Shown in pieces: positions 22,615-35,594 of a stretch of DNA of 38,905 nt (the first letter of the stretch is position 1; every line of letters starts with the position of its first letter). The notes under the pieces were generated by a model. It was not told the DNA's origin and did not search any database. It was given only the letters and a program-made list of their open reading frames with translations. A program made the translations under genes and the position numbers. The stretch spans positions 1 to 38,905 of the forward strand of contig JANJUN010000046.1 of NCBI GenBank assembly GCA_024710565.1, written 5' to 3'. The stretch comes from Candidatus Altimarinota bacterium. GTDB lineage: Bacteria; Patescibacteriota; Gracilibacteria; BD1-5; UBA6164.

Positions 22615-24720
22615 TTATTTTATAATTTTTTCTAAAAAATCAAAATTTAATCTTCTTTTCTCCATTTCAACACTTCCAATTTTGATTTTTAGAGTGTCTC
22701 AAACTTGAAAAAATAAATCTTTAGAAAAACTAAATTTCATATGTTCACTATCATAATCAAATTTATTTTTTCATATACTATTTCCAACTTGTTCAATGGA
22801 AACAAATCATTCTGCTGTATTATCTAGTTCTACAAAAAATCAACTTTCTATCATACCAGAAATCACTCATTCAAACTCTTCTCCGATGCGTTTTTCATAA
22901 TATTTACAAATCATAAGATCTCTTACAGCATATTCTAATTTTTCAGCTTTTCTTTCAGTATCAGAAGTATTTTTTGAAACTGATTTTAAAATAGTTTTAT
23001 AGTGTTCGATTCTTACTTTATCGAGTTTTCAAGATAATTTTTCTTTTATAATTCTATGAATTTGTAAATCTGGATATCTTCTTATTGGTGAAGTAAAGTG
23101 AGAATAATATTCTAAATTCAGTCAAAAATGCCCAACATTTTCCTCAGAATAAATAGCTTTTTCAAGGCTTCTCAAAATAAGTTTTTGAAGTAATTTTTGT
23201 TTTGGATTTCACTCAATTTGTTTTAATATATCAGCCAAAATTTTTGGTGTTAAATTTTTGTATGGTAAAATAATCTCAAAAATATTGAGAGTATTTCTGA
23301 GTTTTTCTACATCATCTTCTGCTGGAACTGGATGTACTCTATATACAAAAGGAAGCTTAGAATAGACCTCTCAAACGCTTTCATTTGCTAAAACCATAAA
23401 TTCTTCAATGATTTTCATACTCTCATATCTCTCATATTTTTCTATTGCGATAGGATTTCAAAACTCATCAAGTTTTATCTTTGTTTCTGGAAAATCAAAA
23501 TCAAGGATTCAAGCTTTTTGTTTTTTTAATTTTACGATATTTTTTAGCTCATAAGAAAGATTTACCGCGTCAGAAAGCTCTTTTGAAATAATTCAACCAA
23601 ATTTTAATTCATCTCAAACTCATAATTTCTTATCCAGTATTTCTTGTACTTCCCTATAGGTGAGACGAAAATGAGAAGAAATCACACTTTCATATACTTT
23701 TTTTGAAATAACATTTCATTTTTCATCAATAACCATTTCACAAGTGAGTGTGAGTTTTTTTGTATGAGGATTGAGTGAGCACAGGTCATTTGATAATTTT
23801 TCAGGAAGCATCGGAATAACTCTATCAACTAAATAAATAGAGTTTCATCTTTTAAAAGCCTCTTTATCTAAGAAACTTCATTCTTTTACATATTCTGCTA
23901 CATCAGCGATAGAAACAAGTAATTTATAATTTTTTCCGTCTTTTTCTACTCAAACGGCATCATCTAAATCTTTTGCATCTTCGCCATCAATGGTAAAAAT
24001 AAGTTTTTTTGTGAGATCTATTCTTTTTGCGCTTTCTTCAAATTTTAATTTTTCAGCTTCTGCTAAAACACTTTCTCAAAAACGAATTCTTGCTCATCAC
24101 TCGAGAGCAATTCACATAATATCTACTCAAGTTTTTTCACTATCTCAAAGTATTTCAAAAATACTTCATTCAGGATTTTTTCCTTCCCAAGCAGTGATTT
24201 TTATAGCAACTTTATCTCAGTTTTTTATTTGATCTTTATATTTTGATAGTTTTTTATTTGAAATATGAACATCCGCTTTAAAAGCTGGATTATCTAGTAC
24301 AACAAAAGCAAAATCTTTTACTAGTTCAATTTTTCACACTAAAATCCTATCCGCCCTTTTTATCACCTTGGTAATTACGGCTTCCTTTCTACGATTAAAT
24401 ACTTTTATAACAGCCTCAACTTCATCTCCATCTAGTGCTCCGTTTAGATTTTTTGGATAGACAAAATATCACTTTTCTTGCCCTTCTACATCTACAAATC
24501 AAAAATCATTATTTTTACTTCCAGAATACACTCAAACTATTTTTTCTAAGTCTGAGTAATCTTCTTGCTTTTTTATATAATTTTTATATCTTGAGGTTTT
24601 ATTGGAAAAAGATTTTTTTTCATCTTTTTTTTGAAATCTATTTTCTTTATGATTTTTCTTGAATTCTCCCCCAGAGGATTTTTTTTTGTCTTTTCAAGAC
24701 CATTCACCTTGTTTTTTCAC
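22615..24720 (-). CDS. rnr: Ribonuclease R (RNB-family 3'-5' exoribonuclease)
   Basis: 701 residues. A lysine-rich N-terminal tail (~1-50) is followed by an OB/cold-shock region with [15 protein letters not shown] (~73-87), the RNB catalytic domain with [17 protein letters not shown] and its aspartate cluster (~241-257), [16 protein letters not shown] (~568-583), and a C-terminal S1 domain ([15 protein letters not shown] ... EGFVSIE). This is the normal RNase R/VacB order, processively degrading structured RNA. No ATG lies in frame near the expected start; GTG at 24720 ([14 protein letters not shown]) is chosen. It is first in an operon with the AI-2E permease. A second, shorter RNB gene lies at 34056-35594. 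Confidence 0.93.
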
Positions 24721-24747
24721 TTTTTGAAAATTAGTAATATTATGCGT

Positions 24748-24774
24748 ATTTTACCTATTTTAGAAAAATAGCAA
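24748..24774 (-). promoter_or_regulatory. Promoter of the RNase R-permease operon
   Basis: On the minus strand TTGCTA (24769-24774), 15-base spacer, TAAAAT (24748-24753). The start would lie about 20 bases before the GTG. It begins just after the terminator at 24779-24806. Confidence 0.55.
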
Positions 24775-24778
24775 AAAT

Positions 24779-24806
24779 AAAAGAAAACTTGAGAAAGTTT
24801 TCTTTT
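24779..24806 (-). terminator. Terminator of the phosphatase-nucleotidyltransferase/Nudix unit
   Basis: 12-bp stem AAAAGAAAACTT/AAGTTTTCTTTT (24779-24790, 24795-24806) with a 4-base loop; minus-strand reading leaves it into TTTTATTTTTG. Between it and the Nudix stop (24810-24941) I see nothing but A+T-rich sequence. Confidence 0.7.
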
Positions 24807-24941
24807 ATTTTTCCTTAAATATATTTTTGTAATTTTAAGTATTCAACTTGGGAAAAGATCTATTTATATTTTCATCTAGATTTTTTAAAGTTGCTTTTAG
24901 AGATATTTAATAATTTGCTATTTGTGATATATATTATTATA

Positions 24942-25358
24942 TTAGTTTATAAATTCTATGTATGTATTATTTTTATCTAATAAATCAAATATTTCTTTTG
25001 GTCTTACGTCCAAATTATCAATATAAGATTTTTGTAAAAATTTTGCATCACTAATTTCAAACGCATGTGTGGCTGATTGATTATTGATTTCATCAAAATC
25101 ATGAATATTTAGTATTTCAAACCATATATCCAAATACAATTCTCCACTTAAATTTTTAAATTCTCTTATGAGTACACATTTTCAAATCTCTGGCGTTATT
25201 CATAATTCTTCTACAAATTCTCTTGAGAGACATTCTTTAAAAGTTTCTCATCCTTCATACGTTCATCATGGTAAACAATAAAATCATCATTTGTTTACAT
25301 ATGCAAAGAAAATTTTATTTTCCTTTTTTACTACTCATCTCACTTTAATTGTGTGCAT
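24942..25358 (-). CDS. Nudix hydrolase
   Basis: 138 residues with a complete Nudix box, G32-x5-E38-x7-R46-E47-F-V-E50-E51-L-G53-I54. Several of its glycines are UGA. The family cleaves nucleoside diphosphates linked to another group (oxidised NTPs, NDP-sugars, ADP-ribose and so on), with Mg bound by the REVxEE glutamates. The C-terminal half (YLDIWFEIL, PKEIFDLLDKN) does not point to a substrate. It lies only 5 bases downstream of the phosphatase-nucleotidyltransferase fusion, so the pair is almost certainly translated from one mRNA and probably acts on related nucleotides. Confidence 0.9.
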
Positions 25359-25363
25359 ATATT

Positions 25364-26941
25364 TTATTTGTTAAATAATAAATTATAAAAATCATATCTC
25401 GCCTGTAAATCTTGTTGAAGATATTTTGGAAATCTATCTTTTCTAATAAAAATATCAATAATACTTAAATTACTTAGTTCATTATTTTGTTTTTTTGCAT
25501 CATTATATATTCTTAAAAAAGATTTTCTTAAATTAAACAACTGCTTCTTAACTTCTACCTCATTTTTAAATACTTTTGTAAAAGAACAATATTTATCAAT
25601 GTTATTTCAAGCTACAAATCTTCATTGTTCCCATTTATATAATGGATAATGAATAATTTGTCCTTCTTTTGTATAAGTGATATTATTATTCCATGAAAAA
25701 TGGTCTCAAAGAAATGATTTTCTACATGCTATAATACCATTTTCTCTATATTGTTTTCTAAATTCTTTCATAATATATTCATTTCACGGTTTGAGGGTAT
25801 TTTGACAAATTTTTTCAAAACAGTCCTTTTTAGTAATTCTATAATCAATTGGTCTTCATTTATACATAGATTTAAAGGAAAAATAATCTGATCATGAGAG
25901 TAAAAAATCATGGAAATCTTTTTGAATATCTCAATACGAATATCCTAAAAGGATATTATCTTTCAATTGAGAAATATCAAATTTATCATCAATAATTAAC
26001 TCAATGTCTAAATCTGAGTTATCTTTAATAGAATAATTCTTTCCATAAATAGTACTTCCGAAATATAAAACTGAGTATATTCCGTCTATTTTACATATAT
26101 CATTTATTTCTTGAATCAAATCATTTACTTTTATAGTATTTTCTAATAATTTTAGTAAATTTACCACATGATAATTATCTAAATGATTTTTAAATTTTTC
26201 AACTAAATAATCTATTACTTCTTTTTCTTGATGAAGAGATATTTTTGCAAAATTAGATAAAAAATCATCTGATAAGGCCGAATTAAAGTCAAAAGTATCA
26301 AATAAATTATCTAATATATTTACTATTTGATTTCAAGAAAACGATATATTATTATTCAATGAAGTTAATTCTTTTTCCTCTAATCTAAATATCTCATCAT
26401 TTCTAATATTATTTTCTAACCAAACCTTTGGGGGTAATTGATGAATATTTCATATCAAACATCTGGCTATACTATTATGTGTTAATAATAATAAATTATA
26501 GTTTTGTGTTTTAGTAACATTAATTATTTTTTTTATTTCTGGTATAACTCTTAATTCCATTTCTTGAGCTGATTCTCAGAAATTTGACTTATGAATATAC
26601 TTATTTGTTTCAAGAGTGTGTAAACAATTTGTTAATCATTTTTCTCTCGCCTGATCTAAAGTAAGTCATTCTATTTCTCAAAAATTTTGGGGATGAAGTA
26701 CCGGAAATTCAACCACACAAGGATTACCATATTTCCTAATAATATCTGACGTCATTTGGGCTCTCATTTGTGGAGAGGATATAATCATATCAATTTGTTT
26801 TCATATTCTTGCTCAAATATTATGAGCATCAATCTTTCATTTATCAGTAAGCTGAACATCTGTTATTCAAACAATAGCTTTCGTTATATTTGCAGTTGTT
26901 TCTCAATGGCGAGCTATATATATTTCTCATTTCATATTCAT
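25364..26941 (-). CDS. Histidine phosphatase fused to a nucleotidyltransferase domain
   Basis: A continuous 525-residue frame. Residues ~4-190 are a histidine-phosphatase (phosphoglycerate-mutase-like) domain: ARHGET (10-15) with the phospho-accepting His12, ISSPQMRAQMTS, GEIEGLTLDQA and the second catalytic His in LLLLTHNSIARCLIG. A helical linker follows (~200-285), then a Pol-beta-type nucleotidyltransferase core, FGSTIYG (294-300) and NSDLDIEL (308-315), the GS-x10-plus-DxD metal site. About 200 C-terminal residues (aromatic and Lys-rich) are unrecognised and may bind substrate. I do not recall this domain combination. The Nudix gene 5 bases downstream suggests nucleotide or nucleotidylated-sugar chemistry: transfer, removal of phosphate, pyrophosphate cleavage. 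Domain calls rest on visible motifs; the overall function is unknown. Confidence 0.82.
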
Positions 26942-27024
26942 TTATTTAAAAAATAAAGCATTGCAAATTGCCAAGCTTTTATACCCTTTGTAAAAAATAA
27001 AAATATTGAAAAAATTAAGAAAAA

Positions 27025-27330
27025 TTATTTTATATCTTTTAATATTTTTTTTTGTTTTGATTTTTCCATCTGTAAAAATGGTAATGATAGTTTTTCAAGC
27101 AATTCTTTTGTTTTTATTTTGAGATGAATGTTTTCAAACATGACATCAAAAAAAAGTTCATCATATAAAGGACTAAAAAAATTATACATTCCTTCAAAAT
27201 TATTTTCATTTAAAAACTCTTTTTTCGCAATTTGAAGTACAAGTCTTTTTGCAATTTTCTCTTTATCATTTTTAAGTAAATAAAGTATTTTTTGTCTAAA
27301 AAAAGTTAAATTATCTTGTGTTATTTTCAT
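27025..27330 (-). CDS. Hypothetical protein, 101 aa
   Basis: ATG 27330 to TAA 27025-27027, with no internal UGA, so it reads the same under either code. Strongly charged and predicted helical (KNDKEKIAKRLVLQIAKKEF, then KIKTKELLEKL), soluble, no motif. It is 83 bases upstream of the phosphatase-nucleotidyltransferase fusion on the same strand and may open that unit. Such small charged proteins can be regulators or antitoxin-like partners, but nothing in the sequence proves it. Confidence 0.65.
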   Translation of the reverse strand: MKITQDNLTFFRQKILYLLKNDKEKIAKRLVLQIAKKEFLNENNFEGMYNFFSPLYDELFFDVMFENIHLKIKTKELLEKLSLPFLQMEKSKQKKILKDIK

Positions 27331-27382
27331 AATTTTTGTTTAATAATTCTATAAATATATCCATTATTTTTTATAATTTGAT

Positions 27383-27640
27383 CTAAAGTCAAAAGGTAAA
27401 TATTTCATATTTTCCTGAAAAATAGCTAAATAAATATCTTCAACAACATCTTAAGATAGAAGTAATTCTAAAATTATCTCCTCTTAAATTCAGTGAGAAA
27501 TACTTCTTTTTAATCTCTATATGAATGCAAAAAAGTGGCCTATTTTCGTTGTTTTTCAATAAAATATATTTTTGAAAAAGAATGAGTCTTGGTAGACTTT
27601 TTCAAATAATCTTACTTTTATAAACATGATTATTTTTTTA
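27383..27640 (-). other. Open frame without a start, possible gene remnant
   Basis: Between the NACHT gene and the 101-aa gene is a gap of more than 300 bases. On the minus strand one frame stays open for about 85 codons to TAG 27383-27385, with a protein-like stretch containing RPLFCIHIEIKKKYFSLNL and RGDNFRITSILRCC, but no ATG. A second frame offers a 35-codon ATG peptide starting near 27637 that stops where the first becomes protein-like, as if a frameshift had split a gene. It may also be chance in A+T-rich DNA. Confidence 0.25.
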
Positions 27641-27657
27641 TATTTTGGATATTAAAA

Positions 27658-27686
27658 AAATACCTCACATATACTATGAGGTATTT
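27658..27686 (-). terminator. Terminator of the NACHT gene
   Basis: 10-bp perfect stem AAATACCTCA/TGAGGTATTT (27658-27667, 27677-27686), 9-base loop. Read on the minus strand it is followed by a T run. About 33 bases after the NACHT stop codon. Confidence 0.75.
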
Positions 27687-27718
27687 CAAAGAAAAATACT
27701 GAAAAAGTTAAGAAAAAG

Positions 27719-30700
27719 TTAGTTATTATCTTCAAGTAAATGTTTATGCTGTTCTATAAATAAATTATTTTCTTTTCATCAAATTTGTTGTAAGAGTTTT
27801 AAGAATATACGTTTATATTCATTTTTTATTATTCAACCTGTAATAAAACCTTTTATCATATCAGTAGTAAATTTTCATCAAAAATGAGAATTATACATAT
27901 GTAAAATTTGTTCAATTATTTCTAAATTATAAAAATTCATCGATAGTTTACTCAATAGCACCATAAGCTCTTTTTCCCCATACAATTCATAATATGATAT
28001 AAGTAATTTCTCCTTATTTGGTATATCATCATCTCACGTGGAATCATAGTCAAAATATTCTTTTTTATGAATATTGAAAATTTTTATAATATATTCAGTA
28101 AGAGTATGTAATATTCTTTTATTATATTTATAGTCTGTTCAATTTATTATATCCAAACAATATAATAATTTTTCAATATCATTATCACGTTGAGTGTAAC
28201 CATCTATAATTTCTTCTATTTCGGAATTACTCATACCATGGATAGCAAATTGAAAGTTATTTTCACAGATTGAAAAGTCTTTTAATAACAACTTATGTAA
28301 TTTTCAAGATATTTTTATGTTTCTTTTATTAGCATATTCTAATATATGAGATAAAAAACTTGTTTTTTCATTTTTGTCAATTGACTCTAATTCTAATATT
28401 TTATAAACTACTAATTCTACTTGTTCTCATAAAAGTATTATTAAAACCTTTAATATATCATAAATTATTGGTCGATCAATAGATTCAAAGTTTTCTAATA
28501 AATAAAATAATTTATTTTCACATACCTTTATCAATTTACTTTGTTCAATACCTGCTCTTAAGAATACTTCTAATATTGCATTATTTATAAGATAATTTGA
28601 ATTAGAATAGAATTTTTCAATAAAAAAATCTATTCCAAAATGTGAAAAATTTCTTGAAATAATATCAATAGATATTTCACAAATTTCTGGGCTTCATGAT
28701 AAAATACCTTCTATATAAATATGTTTATAAGATGCATCAAAATTTTTTCATAAAATAGCCAACACTATATCTGGATATTTTGAATCATTATTAATATATA
28801 GTTGCATAAAAAAATCAAATATCTCTTTTGAATTTCTCTCTAGAAAAATTTTTAAAAATTCATTTTCAAAAAAATGTCATTTAACATATGTATAATTTTC
28901 TTTAAAGAAATGGAATAATTCATCACTATTCAATATATCACTATATTGAGACAGACAAAAAAGCTTAATATAAATATCATTTGTATGAAAAAAAACATTA
29001 TAAATTTCTTGTTGAAAACGAGTATCATCTGTTAATACTTTTCTCAATGTTTGGATATATGATCTTGCTAAATCTCGACTTATATTTCTTTTGAGAATAT
29101 CTATTACCTGATTAATATTTTGAAAAGAACGTTTTTGTAAGATATTTAAAATGAGAGTCTGTCCCCTATAATCTTCATTTATTACTGATTGAGTTAAGTA
29201 TAAATCAACATAATATAAATATTGAGATTGATTTAAAAAATATCACTCATTTAAAAAATCAATATATTTTTCTCATTTAATATTTTTCTCATTTAATTCA
29301 GATATAATAGATTCCCAAATATCAACTAAAAAATCAATTTCTTTTACATCGCTTCCAAGTCTTTCTCTGAGAAAATAATATACTGTCTTAATAACATAAA
29401 AAAAATGAGTCTGTTGAATAATTTCTAATAAAAATTCTGTTGAAACATAAGAAAAAATTTTTATGATATCAGCTGGAATGTTATAATCATTATATGTTTT
29501 TTTAATATATTCCTCTAGAAACTTAGTTTCTCATAATAAATATAATTTCTCACTAATGAGTAACTGATAATCTTTTTGTAAAAATGTTTTTTTTAAAAAG
29601 TCTTTAATATATAACTTCTTATTATCCAGAATTAAAATATATAATATTTCTATATTTTCTTGAGATAACTCAATTCTTTGTAAATATTCATTCATCATTC
29701 CTTCATCTAATTTTCCCAATAAATAAACTATCTTATGATGTATTGTTTGAGAAAAATAGTTCTCATTCTCATCTATTTGTTTTAAAAATTTTTCCTTTAA
29801 TTCTTCATCTGTTTTTATAAAATTCACTAACATCTCCAAAAAATTTGTATCAACTTTTTTCAATTCTTGGCACAAAAATCATTCATAATTAAAGTCTGGT
29901 TCACTTTTCATTTCATCAAAAATATATTTTGCAGCAAAATATTCTTTAAAACTTTGATGTACAAAATCAAATTCCTGAGTCTCAGTATTTTTCCTAAATA
30001 GTAAATTTACTCACTCTATTGCATCATCATTCGGCAATGATATGTATTCATCAAGACTGGTTATTTTTTCATTCTCTATTATTTGTAAATATGCTATTTT
30101 TCCTAATCCTGAATATATTTGTTTTAAATATGATTCTTTATTTATCTTTCTTTCTTTATTTTTTCATACATTAAAATCAACCAATCTTCTTTTCACTATT
30201 CTTTCGTAAAGTTCTATTATATTTATTTGGCCTATTTCTAACACTTCATCACTCGCAACCAGCTCACAAACCATACACAAAACAAGTGGATTATTTCATG
30301 CTCCGTTGAGTTTTTCTAGTATCGTCTGAGTACTAGCTATTTTTTTCTCATTATTATGAAAATATTTTCTTAAATAATCATCTATATTTTCTTTCGTAAA
30401 ATCTTGTATTTCTATTATTTCTTGATTTCTTTCTATTATTTTTTTTTGTTGTTTTCCCTCATCTTTTTCTTCATCATATGTTTGTAAATATCCCTTTCTT
30501 GAGGTAATAATCACTTTTGTATTTTTTGAAAGTTCTAATAGTTTTTCATCTAATTTTTTTCTATTTTCTTCTCATTTTATATCACTTTCATCTATTGAAT
30601 CAAATAAGTAAACAACTTGATAGTTTTCATAAATAGCATGATTTAATTCTTGAATTATATCTAATTTTTTTCATGACAAATTTATGTAAACAGGATAATA

Positions 30701-32050
30701 TGGTTTAACCAAGTTCTGACTTATAAGGATTAATTCATTAAGCGCTTCTAGAATATACAATAATAAATATGATTTTCAAGATCATGCTTTTCACTCAATA
30801 TATTTTATAGGTTTTCAACTTTTAATTAACTCTATAGGATTACCTATATATTCACTATGACTAAAATTAAAATGTGGATTTATATCTACTCATTCTTTTA
30901 TTCTTTTATCTAATGATCTTTCTCTAGTTTCTATTACTTGTGGATATACCTCTAAGTAATATCTTATAATATTTTCTTCTTCTTTTGATAATTTTACTTT
31001 AATTTCTTTTACTAAATCTATATATTCTTTATCAGCGAATAATTCATTTAATATCTTTATTTCTTTATTTTTTATTAGTTTTATTAAACAAAATATTCTT
31101 AATTCTATTACATCACTATAAAGATATTCATCTCTTTTAAATAATTCAGTATTTTTTATAAAATACACATTCAACTTATTTTGAAAATCTATCATTGATG
31201 AATACTCTATCTCTGGAAATATTTGTTTCAATTTTAAATAATTTGATAACGTGATTTTTAATATATCTTTATTATTTATTTTTTTGTGATTTGAATTATA
31301 ATCTATAAAATCATATAATTCTTCTTCAAATCTACATATACTTCATCTTAATGATATATTTCATTCAGCTCACAATAAACTCATTCAATGTGAATATGAT
31401 CTATTTCAGATTATTATTATATTTTCATATTTATTGTCTTGATTTAAATTTTCTAATTCTGTTACTACTTTACTTATTTCTCATGGTTTTTCTGCATATT
31501 CTTTTCCTGTATCTACAGTTTTATCTGATCATGGCAGATTTACATGTTGTTTATTTTCAACTTCAAATTTTATAGCTAATGATTTTCCTGTTATTCTACA
31601 CCTTTGCATTCATTCTTCAGAATCATAATATGCCAATAATGTTCTCTCTGGATTATTTAATAATTCTTTGATTTGTTCATAACTAATATATTCCCCTACT
31701 TTCATTTCTTTAAAGTCTGTACATATTAATTTATCTACTATGCTTGATAATTCATTTATTCTTTTTTTCTCATCTTCCGTTATTATTTTTTTTCTTAATT
31801 TCTCTAAAAGTATATTATACTCCTTTACTTCTTCTCTAGTTTCATCATAAGGAAAATGTCTTAAATATGTTATTCTTGTTTTTACTTTTCTCTCTCATAA
31901 TACTTCTTGTATTTCTTTAGGTGTATAATTAATTTTTCTTGATACTTTTACTACATCTTCTTTTACTCATTCACTAGCTAAAATAACCTCTTTATCCAAA
32001 GAAGTTTGTTCTCTATTTCAGTTTATTTGAACTCTCTTATTTATTGTCAT
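27719..32050 (-). CDS. NACHT/STAND NTPase with large helical C-terminus (NLR-like)
   Basis: 1443 residues in one frame. The NTPase core has Walker A EGKAGSGKS (419-427), a NACHT-type Walker B LFDSIDE (482-488), sensor-like VIITSR (513-518), an NPLVLCMVCELVA segment and the C-terminal NACHT motif FVHQSFKEYFAAKYI (~695-710). Residues ~715-1443 form a long helical array (LYILILDNKKLYIKD, IKLFCLSQYSDI), probably HEAT/TPR-like sensor repeats. The first ~400 residues match no effector I know; they hold charged helices and a Gly/Ser-rich part (IIIIGNRSYSHGMSLLGAEG). All three Walker A glycines are UGA. In bacteria this architecture is typical of NLR-like antiphage proteins. The defence role is inferred. 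It has its own promoter and terminator. Confidence 0.88.
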
Positions 32051-32077
32051 AAAAAAAGAAGTAATTAATACTCCTTT

Positions 32078-32106
32078 ATTTTATCATATTTTCTCTTATT
32101 ATTCAA
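32078..32106 (-). promoter_or_regulatory. Promoter of the NACHT gene
   Basis: On the minus strand TTGAAT (32101-32106), 17-base spacer, TAAAAT (32078-32083), in the 64-base gap after the GHMP-like gene. A GGAG lies at the probable 5' end of the message, too far (~21 bases) from ATG 32050 to be a normal ribosome binding site. Confidence 0.5.
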
Positions 32107-32114
32107 ATTTCTGA

Positions 32115-33830
32115 CTATATTTTTCTGATAGTTCAAATTTTTAAATTTAATTCTCACATTTTTATAAAAAAATCTGTTATACTTCATTTACAAACTATTT
32201 GTAATTTTTCTCCAGTTTTTGCTTCTACAAACTTCAAAAGTGGTAAAATGATTTTTCAAAGCATTTCATTTTTATTTCAAGTATAACTTGAGATAGGTAA
32301 ATCCTTATTTGATATTTCTTCTCAAATATTTTCAAGTAATTTATTTATAACTTCTATTGTCGTATTTTGTGATGGAATATCTTTTGAAGTTAATTTTTGA
32401 CCATTAAAATATATTTTACTTTCAATCATATCAAACAACAATCAATCAGAATGATTTTTAATAATTTCATTATAATCTCATAAAAAACTATTTCATTTAT
32501 TGTCTTTAAAAATAACCTTATTTTTATCAACGTATTTTGAATAAATTCAATTTGTTATAAATTGCTCTATTTTAATAGGAGAAACCTCAGAATCATCCAT
32601 ATATGATGCATATTCTAATTCTATTTGTGGATAATTATTTTTTATATCTTCAATTGTTTTTAAAACTGTATTTCTAGAAACTCAAGATTTTGTAACCAAA
32701 ATATACCCTCATCAAAGTTTTCAAGTATAAATAGGACATATTCACATTATTTCTTGATAATTAGTTCTATTATTTTTAAATAAATGACTAAAATCTCAAG
32801 CAAAACTATTTTGTTCCTCAAAAGTTTCTATAACATTTCTACAAGTATTAACATGATTTATAAATTTTGACGTAAATTCCTCATTAAATGGCTCATTATA
32901 AATTTTATATAAATACTCTAACATCTTTAGATTTTCTAAATTTATATGTTTAAGTTTTGTTTGTAAAACTTGATTTTTATCTTCAAAATCTAAAAAATAT
33001 TTTTCTTTCGTGTCTTTATTTATTATTTTAACAAAATCAGAAATATAATCATTTTTGCGTTGTAAATCTTTATAATATTCTACTTGATTTGTATTTGATG
33101 GTAATCAAGAAAATAAAATATAATAATCAAATGGTAATCAAACTCATGAATTATTTAAAGAAGAGAAAGTATATGAAATATCATCAAATGAATCAATATC
33201 TACATCTTTTGCAGAAGATAAAAAATATGAAACTGACTTATTTCATTTAAGCGTAAAAACAGAATTATGTCAAAGAGATGTATTGTATCAAGAACGAGAT
33301 AAAAAATTAATTTTTCAAGAAAGAGAAAAAACATCTTTTTCAATATTTATAAAATCACTTCAATTACTTTCTGACATTAAAAATAATAATCAATAAGAAA
33401 GTATTGCTGATGAAGTTGGAGAAAATCAAAGTGAATGTCATCTAGCAGTTTCTGAAAGTATTTCTATTTCTACTCAAAAGTTTATATTATTTTTATGAAA
33501 TTCTTCTAAAAGTAAATTTACAACTTTTTGCTCTTCTTTATTTATTTTAGAATATTCAACTTTTTCAAATTCTTTTTTATTCAAATTAAAAAAAGTAACA
33601 TTATTAAAAATTATTTTTTTATCATTTCTTTTTTTTATTCAAACATAACATTTTAAAGGAATAGATGACTTAATTCTTAAATATCAAACTGAATTTAAAC
33701 CAATTCCCTCATAAGTCCAAGGAAAACTAAAACACCCACTTAAAACCAAATCATTTCTTGCAAAAAAATCTTTATATACATCTGGAAAATGTTTTTGTAA
33801 ACTCTCGGTATTCATAACAATTCTTTCCAT
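32115..33830 (-). CDS. Divergent GHMP-kinase-like protein, 571 aa
   Basis: Residues ~28-60 (LSGCFSFPWTYEGIGLNSVG) are in the place of the GHMP N-terminal strand-loop. RGHSLGFSPTSSAIL (130-144) resembles the GHMP phosphate-binding motif P-x3-GLGSSAA, and a late glycine block, GKLGGGYILVTKSG (~366-379), resembles GHMP motif 3. GHMP enzymes phosphorylate small alcohols or acids (mevalonate, homoserine, sugars). The protein is much longer than a normal GHMP kinase (~300-350), with an extra middle region and about 190 unrecognised C-terminal residues. It is directly upstream of the NACHT gene on the same strand, but the NACHT gene has its own promoter. Motif matches are partial; the family is likely, the substrate unknown. 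Confidence 0.5.
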
Positions 33831-33862
33831 AAATAAAGAAAAAAATATATAAAATTAAAATA

Positions 33863-33889
33863 ATTATATAAAAATCAGAAAAATAGCAA
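33863..33889 (-). promoter_or_regulatory. Promoter of the GHMP-like gene
   Basis: On the minus strand TTGCTA (33884-33889), 15-base spacer, perfect TATAAT (33863-33868). About 30 bases upstream of ATG 33830. The rest of the gap to 34055 is A+T-rich with nothing recognisable. Confidence 0.55.
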
Positions 33890-34055
33890 AAATTAATTTA
33901 TAAGAAATAAATTGAAATTATTATATTTAAAAGAAAAAATATATATAGAAATCTAAAATTTTAAATATTTTTAATACATGTTGTACCAAACATTTTTCAC
34001 TTTTTTGTCTTTTTTTAAGAACAAAAATATAATTTATTTTAATTTAAAAATCAAA

Positions 34056-35594
34056 CTATTTTCAACAAAAATGCTCTACTATTTTCTTTACTGCTTTATT
34101 TCTTAATTTTCCAATAGCCTCATTTTTCTCATATTTTCAATAATTAAGATAAAGCGGATGAAATAATTCTTGTTGCTTATATTGTACAGATATACTTAAT
34201 TGACTTCACTCCTCTTTTTCTTCAATTTGAAACAAAAATTCCTCATCGGTATTTAAAACTTTTGTCACACTTAAAAGAGAAAGTATTGATTTTGAAGTAA
34301 ACTTTTTATCCTGAAGCAAGACCTTTTTTAGAGTTTGTTTGAGTGCCTCACTTTTTCAAACCAATAAAACCCCAATTGCCCAAGCCCAATTTGCTTTTTC
34401 CCCATTTTCTAAATCATTACGTATTTCTTCCACAATTATTTGAGGAATTTTTTTCCCAGCTCATACCGTATCTCTTATATTTTTTGTAAAATGGGAAGTA
34501 TTTAAATCTTCTCCATTTTTATGTTTTAATTTCGAAACAATCTTCTTTCATTTGAGTTCATTATCAGCATCTCTTCCAAGAATATCAATCACCGTTCTGG
34601 AAACATTGATATGTTCAGCAATATCAAAAATTTCTTGTTGTGAATATACTCAGGATTCTTGTCTTAAATGAACCCATTTTAAAACCCTGTGTATCACCGT
34701 ATCGGCATATCTTCTAATAGGTGAAGTAAAGTGTGAATAATTCATCAATGCTAATCCAGCATGACGTCAAGCACAAGCATAATAATATGCCTTTTCATCG
34801 GTTGAATTATGAAGTCTAAAAATAGAATCATATTTATTTCTTACACATAAAATAGCAGAACATATATTTGCTAAAATCATATACTCTTCAATAATGATAG
34901 ACGGTATTTTTTTTCTCGAAAAATGTTCTTTTTCTCTATTGGGTCAAATATAAAGTTGTCTATCACTTTCATCAAAATTCATATTTGCTCATTCTCTTGT
35001 TCTTATATATCTCCTTTTTCTTGCTATTTCATACATCAATTGAAATATTTCATGATCTTCCATTTCTGGATTTGAAAAAACATCCATAAAACTTTCATAA
35101 TCATGTCTTTTTTTATTTTTAAAAATGGATTCATAAATACAAAAATCTTTTATTTCTGCATCGTTATCCAAATCTATTCTGATACTTAATGTTAATTTTT
35201 CCCCATTTTCATTAAGTGATAAGAGATTTTGTGATAATTCAGGAGGAAACATATTGATTACTCATTCTCCCCTATAAATACTCGTGGTTCTTTTTAACGC
35301 TTCTACATCAAGTGGAGTATAAACAGGAACTGCTTCTGTAATGTCACTAATATGGACAAAAACACTATATCCATTTGCATTTTTTTCTACCCAAATAGCA
35401 TCATCCAAATCAAGTGATTCAATTCCATCGATACTAATTCCTGTCTCATAAACTCTTTTTATCGCTTGATCTTGAACTCCATTTTGCGTAAGTAGTTTTG
35501 CTTGGTGAAGTGAGAGTTTTGAATAGTCTGCGTTTATAATTGTTTTTTTATCGTATCCAGACAATATTTCAGTAATTCTTGAGGATTGTTTCAT
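34056..35594 (-). CDS. Second RNB-domain exoribonuclease, short form
   Basis: 512 residues with the RNB catalytic signatures: [16 protein letters not shown] (~53-68) carrying the metal-binding aspartates, [10 protein letters not shown], and [16 protein letters not shown] (~292-307). It starts almost directly at the catalytic domain, lacking the cold-shock/OB domains of RNase R, and no S1 domain is evident at the C-terminus, which is instead ~170 charged residues. ATG 35594 gives [11 protein letters not shown]. It hydrolyses RNA from the 3' end like RNase R/II (family knowledge); without RNA-binding domains the substrate range is probably narrower or partner-guided (inference). It shares only the catalytic core with the gene at 22615-24720, so it is not a recent duplicate. 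Confidence 0.87.

Follow-up and report, generated by a model that had tools for sequence, protein, structure and literature searches.

A histidine phosphatase domain fused to a probable Pol-beta-type nucleotidyltransferase and followed by a Nudix hydrolase gene in a Gracilibacteria lineage with TGA recoded as glycine

Results

Gene layout and genetic code

The window, that is, the whole stretch of DNA analysed (38,905 nucleotides, contig JANJUN010000046.1 of a Candidatus Altimarinota bacterium), carries on its minus strand a gene for a 525-aa fusion protein, P0001 (positions 25364–26941), and, beginning 5 bases past its stop, a gene for a 138-aa Nudix hydrolase, P0002 (24942–25358). The nearest named relative found for this Gracilibacteria-type genome is a MAG of its own family, labelled Candidatus Gracilibacteria. 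All frames described here depend on code 25 (Gracilibacteria), in which TGA is read as glycine. Under the standard code, 19 in-frame TGA codons interrupt the P0001 region, and the list of open reading frames contains none of at least 80 aa on the minus strand in the region of the two genes; this reading, which leaves only short fragments open, was rejected. Under code 25 each gene is a single open frame, and the chance of finding 525 codons free of TAA and TAG at the base composition of the window is about 8e-16. The sequence-only reading had placed both domains of P0001 in one frame, which is what code 25, and code 25 only, gives; the recoded TGA was absent from it.

TGA makes up 19 of the 26 glycine codons of P0001 and 8 of the 10 of P0002, shares that resemble those of the neighbouring genes (31 of 47 for RNase R and 30 of 36 for a GHMP-kinase-like protein). 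Since TGA encodes G13 of the RHG motif as well as the glycines surrounding the Nudix box, recoding falls on conserved positions.

From the code 25 frame, domain searches and a structural model, P0001 can be divided into a phosphatase domain (residues ~5–190), a helical linker (~190–285), a probable nucleotidyltransferase core (~285–380) and a conserved C-terminal part (~380–525). The linker, about 100 residues long, is low in G+C and has a single TGA-encoded glycine in 95 residues. Between residues 190 and 359 there is no ATG codon, only TTG and GTG, which excludes a separate ATG-started nucleotidyltransferase; the TTG or GTG codons of residues 195, 259 and 275 could in principle serve as starts. 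The fusion of phosphatase and nucleotidyltransferase is confirmed as real, on condition that TGA codes for glycine.

The phosphatase domain lacks the general-acid glutamate

Pfam profile PF00300 matches residues 7–188 of P0001 (26378–26923, minus strand; E 2.1e-28; 99.8 bits, cut-off 21.7), and the match spans the whole histidine phosphatase domain of branch 1 of the superfamily. Among known structures, the nearest PDB entries are 1ebb and 1h2e, the latter matched with E 6e-10. We compared the active site, by alignment, with those of 18 histidine phosphatase domains taken from the retrieved loci. P0001 retains R11, H12, G13, R60, E123 and H155, and so shares with branch 1 the RHG motif, the second arginine and the second histidine. 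It differs from that branch in its fusion to a nucleotidyltransferase and in the general-acid position, where P84 stands in place of the catalytic glutamate present in all 18 relatives. The histidine phosphatase assignment made from the letters alone is borne out by the profile and the RHG motif; from its residues, the domain is best described as a putative phosphatase without the general-acid glutamate.

P0001 falls far short of all NCBIfam equivalog cut-offs. The nearest model is that of the CobC alpha-ribazole phosphatase (73.5 bits, below the cut-off of 162.9), and TIGR00249, the SixA model, matches weakly (E 9e-06; 25.6 bits, below the cut-off of 74.5). SixA is a short single-domain protein, whereas the phosphatase of P0001 is part of a fusion. 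SixA-type phosphohistidine phosphatases are likewise not known to have the acid glutamate, and their substrate is phosphohistidine.

The probable nucleotidyltransferase core and the C-terminal part

Residues 295–366 (25844–26059, minus strand) carry the GS-x-DxD motif of the Pol-beta superfamily in the form FGS-x13-DLD (G295, S296, D310 and D312), with D366, in GRPIDYRI, as a candidate third acid whose column is not acidic throughout the remote relatives. The Pfam and NCBIfam profiles gave no nucleotidyltransferase match in P0001, and PF01909 gave none up to E 1. Weak alignments link the protein to other nucleotidyltransferases. By tblastn and profile searches of phylum genomes, remote standalone proteins were found (L032, L033, L069 and L071) that have the same motif, in the form GS..YG..SDxD, and similar later strands; their family matches the CdnE profile weakly (E 0.005).

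A single-sequence AlphaFold2 model of the whole protein (pLDDT 35) was discarded as useless. With six alignment rows, AlphaFold2 modelled residues 197–525 at pLDDT 50.5. Residues 71–200 of this model (P0001 267–396) often align with Pol-beta-fold chains, among them Rel synthetases, PolX/Pol beta, ANT(6), ANT(4'), LinB and Tam41 in the rows returned by VIA-align, at Z 4–5.5, a range in which unrelated folds also score. Foldseek of the low-confidence model against the PDB and viral structures returned nothing at E <0.001, its top match being an unrelated transporter (E 0.039).

Taken together, the motif and the weak fold make a Pol-beta-type nucleotidyltransferase at residues ~285–380 probable, though unproven; the earlier assignment stands to that extent, on the motif, the weak alignments and the low-confidence model. 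In comparison with the DNA polymerase beta-like nucleotidyltransferases (PF01909, ANT, MNT, CD-NTase, Rel synthetase), P0001 shares GS-x13-DxD and, in the weak model, a similar secondary structure of the core, but it has no profile match, and its last ~150 residues match nothing described.

Several other candidates were set aside. A phmmer match to a CRISPR DxTHG family (P0001 159–306) straddles the domain junction, has no other support and was attributed to chance, as was the 71% identity over 21 residues within a 6561-residue frame at L037. Seven further loci (L035, L067, L068, L070, L072, L077 and L078) code for other nucleotidyltransferases that have little in common with P0001 besides the motif. 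As a separate observation, L068 (1–825), from a genome of the same class, is a CdnE-like CD-NTase matched by the nucleotidyltransferase profile.

The Nudix gene and the distribution of the architecture

P0002 matches PF00293 (E 6e-08) and has a complete Nudix box, GTYEGGETFKECLSREFVEELGI, at residues 32–54, in agreement with the GX5EX7REUXEEXGU pattern; the Nudix gene proposed from the letters, 5 bases beyond the fusion, is thus borne out. With its full box and profile match, P0002 is an ordinary member of the MutT/Nudix hydrolases and differs from the others only by its place beside a nucleotidyltransferase. Its subfamily is present in 23 of the 353 genomes of the class, with varied neighbours.

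With either the C-terminal 336 residues of P0001 or the whole protein as the query, we searched 99 near relatives, 353 genomes belonging to the class and 380 belonging to the phylum; as these sets overlap, they amount to ~690 distinct genomes. One close relative of the C-terminal part was found, a stretch of 158 residues, 50–54% identical, in G014, another Gracilibacteria genome. The part it shares with P0001 comprises residues 368–525 (25367–25840, minus strand; 53% identity to the shortened copy on JAHDHC010000024.1). The 5' half of the G014 frame is replaced by unrelated sequence, so this copy is a remnant. The same record was the sole C-terminal match in 84,980 GTDB genomes, in a scan seeded with short peptide patterns, which divergent copies can escape. 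No match to the C-terminal part came from plasmids, phages or IMG/VR.

In G014, 4 bases separate the C-terminal relative from a downstream Nudix gene, whose product is 41% identical to P0002, and among the inspected loci of the Nudix subfamily only this copy adjoins the nucleotidyltransferase part. Because the copy is shortened, the evidence for the pairing amounts to one intact case and one remnant. Comparison of these loci gives some support to a nucleotidyltransferase–Nudix pairing and none to a unit of three activities. The C-terminal part was met beside Nudix once more; the full fusion was seen in the window's genome only, across the ~690 phylum genomes, the GTDB pattern scan, IMG/VR, phages and plasmids, and by these searches the architecture of P0001 is a near-singleton. 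An exact-word search of one open-access library gave no paper that names a histidine phosphatase and a nucleotidyltransferase domain together, with or without Nudix or fusion.

A slot of exchangeable genes

Synteny with the congener G001 defines a variable slot at positions 24721–34055, between the RNase R gene (22615–24720) and an RNB gene (34056–35594). The genes of G001 match those of the window on both flanks, malic enzyme through RNase R on one side and the RNB gene through a cell-surface protein on the other, which speaks against a chimeric contig. Between the same flanks G001 has a single unrelated AAA+ gene, and the fusion is therefore part of a slot whose genes are exchangeable. The RNase R genes of G002 and G003 sit in still other settings. 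The G001 AAA+ gene (L090, 5441–7153) is ClpB-like and resembles PADLOC PDC-M37B. The two RNB-family exoribonuclease genes of the window, ~9 kb apart, are both kept in the congener; in the second, only the RNB domain was detected.

In the window the slot holds the Nudix gene, the fusion, a 101-aa ORF, a 1443-aa NACHT protein and a GHMP-kinase-like protein. The 101-aa ORF, P0006 (27025–27330, minus strand), has no family match; 83 bases separate it from the fusion gene downstream. The NACHT gene, P0003 (27719–32050, minus strand; Pfam NACHT E 1.4e-6), is 388 bases from P0006; an EruA-like NCBIfam model matches its product in the NACHT region only and far under the cut-off. P0003 and P0004 gave no match against plasmids. 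The N-terminal 250 residues of P0003 contain RHF...SHG, possibly a diverged phosphatase-like effector; we do not claim phosphatase identity for its N-terminal 400 residues, which have no Pfam match and no BLAST similarity to P0001. The protein of 571 aa encoded at 32115–33830 carries a GHMP-kinase-like motif, ARGHSLGFSPTSSA, and matched no Pfam family.

Phosphatase domains inside tRNA synthetases

Histidine-phosphatase domains are inserted within the isoleucyl-tRNA synthetase of many relatives, where a protein has one such domain or, often, two, and within the valyl-tRNA synthetase at L021 and L028. The insertions were seen at G000:C28 (L093, 1360–5043, minus strand, and L094), L004, L006–L009, L011, L012, L015, L018, L020, L021, L024 and L027–L030. 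By a rough motif count, 14 of 28 loci fall inside synthetase frames, and more do so by eye. There are two main insertion sites, one following the SRxRxWGxPxPVW region and the other following WNTYSFFxTYANID. A single such insertion is present in the genome of the window (G000:C28), and it retains the catalytic glutamate. Alpha/beta-hydrolase-like segments (HSLGG or HSMGG) are also inserted in the isoleucyl-tRNA synthetase of L004 and L011, in L011 apparently as a tandem pair. No paper on phosphatase insertions in tRNA synthetases was found in the literature.

Discussion

P0001 is a new combination of known domain kinds. We tentatively favour the view that it is a bona fide accessory enzyme with two domains, from a Gracilibacteria lineage in which TGA means glycine, with a nucleotidyltransferase core, a Nudix partner and a phosphatase module that is specialised or non-catalytic. 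The observations behind this view are the open frame, the phosphatase profile, the adjoining Nudix gene, the same pairing, degraded, in one other genome, and the variable slot. The motif residues, the alignment of the model core with Pol-beta-fold chains, the remote standalone relatives, P84 and the NACHT neighbour also speak for it. Against it count the absence of any Pfam or NCBIfam nucleotidyltransferase match, the low pLDDT of the model and its Foldseek result, the lack of PADLOC matches for P0001 and P0003, and the truncation of the G014 copy. The chemistry of both proteins, all of which we infer, could be as follows. The Pol-beta-type domain would be the working core and would move NMP from NTP onto a small molecule, RNA or protein; P0002 would hydrolyse the nucleotidyl-diphosphate product or a modified nucleotide; and the phosphatase-like domain would either act on a substrate for which no proton donor is required (phosphohistidine or phosphoramidate, as in SixA) or serve as a binding or regulatory module. 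The overall role would probably be accessory modification and clean-up, or related to defence, rather than core metabolism.

A more doubtful possibility is that an acid-less phosphatase became joined to a nucleotidyltransferase by chance, in a fast-evolving or decaying accessory gene, with no coupled chemistry. The near-singleton architecture, the lost general acid, the linker with its low G+C and few TGA-encoded glycines, and the degraded homologue in G014 would all fit such an origin. Yet 525 codons are still open, whereas the frame of a pseudogene would usually be broken, and RHG, R60 and H155, the GS and DxD motifs and the Nudix box are all retained. A defence role is conceivable given the NACHT neighbour, and an anti-phage or toxin–antitoxin module with the NACHT protein, P0006 or both would also draw on the variable slot in which that neighbour lies, on the PADLOC resemblance of the gene that occupies the slot in G001, and on the similarity of P0002 to the PADLOC candidate PDC-S07. 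We consider this module unlikely: PADLOC gives no match for P0001, tested for a CBASS CD-NTase, or for P0003 or P0006; the test for a HEPN–MNT toxin–antitoxin pair found no MntA match for P0001 and no HEPN-type Rx4-6H in P0006; and 388 bases separate P0006 from the NACHT gene.

Somewhat less probable still is the compact pathway, or self-limiting nucleotidyl switch, that had been proposed from the letters alone, in which the nucleotidyltransferase makes a conjugate, Nudix cleaves it and the phosphatase strips the remaining phosphate. The tight gene order with its 5-base gap, the intact Nudix box and the recurrence of the nucleotidyltransferase–Nudix order in G014 are consistent with it. Against it, what recurs is the C-terminal part with Nudix, once and degraded, the Nudix subfamily lies mostly beside other genes, and our genes sit in a variable accessory slot. 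Hydroxyls are the usual targets of Pol-beta-fold enzymes, and such a modification would give no pyrophosphate bond for a Nudix enzyme to cleave. A three-step pathway is possible, but P84 at the general-acid position makes it less likely, and the analysis does not support the proposal. The insertions in the synthetases bring to mind a histidine-phosphatase fold used as a plug-in module for nucleotide and aminoacyl enzymes, with P0001 as a nucleotidyltransferase acting on RNA or tRNA ends and its phosphatase-like module recognising or trimming that substrate; we regard this as very improbable.

We return to the favoured reading, that of a two-domain accessory enzyme with a Nudix partner. As the gene is a near-singleton and accessory, its general importance is small on present evidence, and the recurrent phosphatase insertions in the tRNA synthetases of the lineage may matter more than the fusion. 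If both domains of P0001 work, nucleotidyl transfer and phosphate chemistry would be newly paired on a single polypeptide, in a lineage whose genomes are tiny and whose accessory genes are poorly understood.
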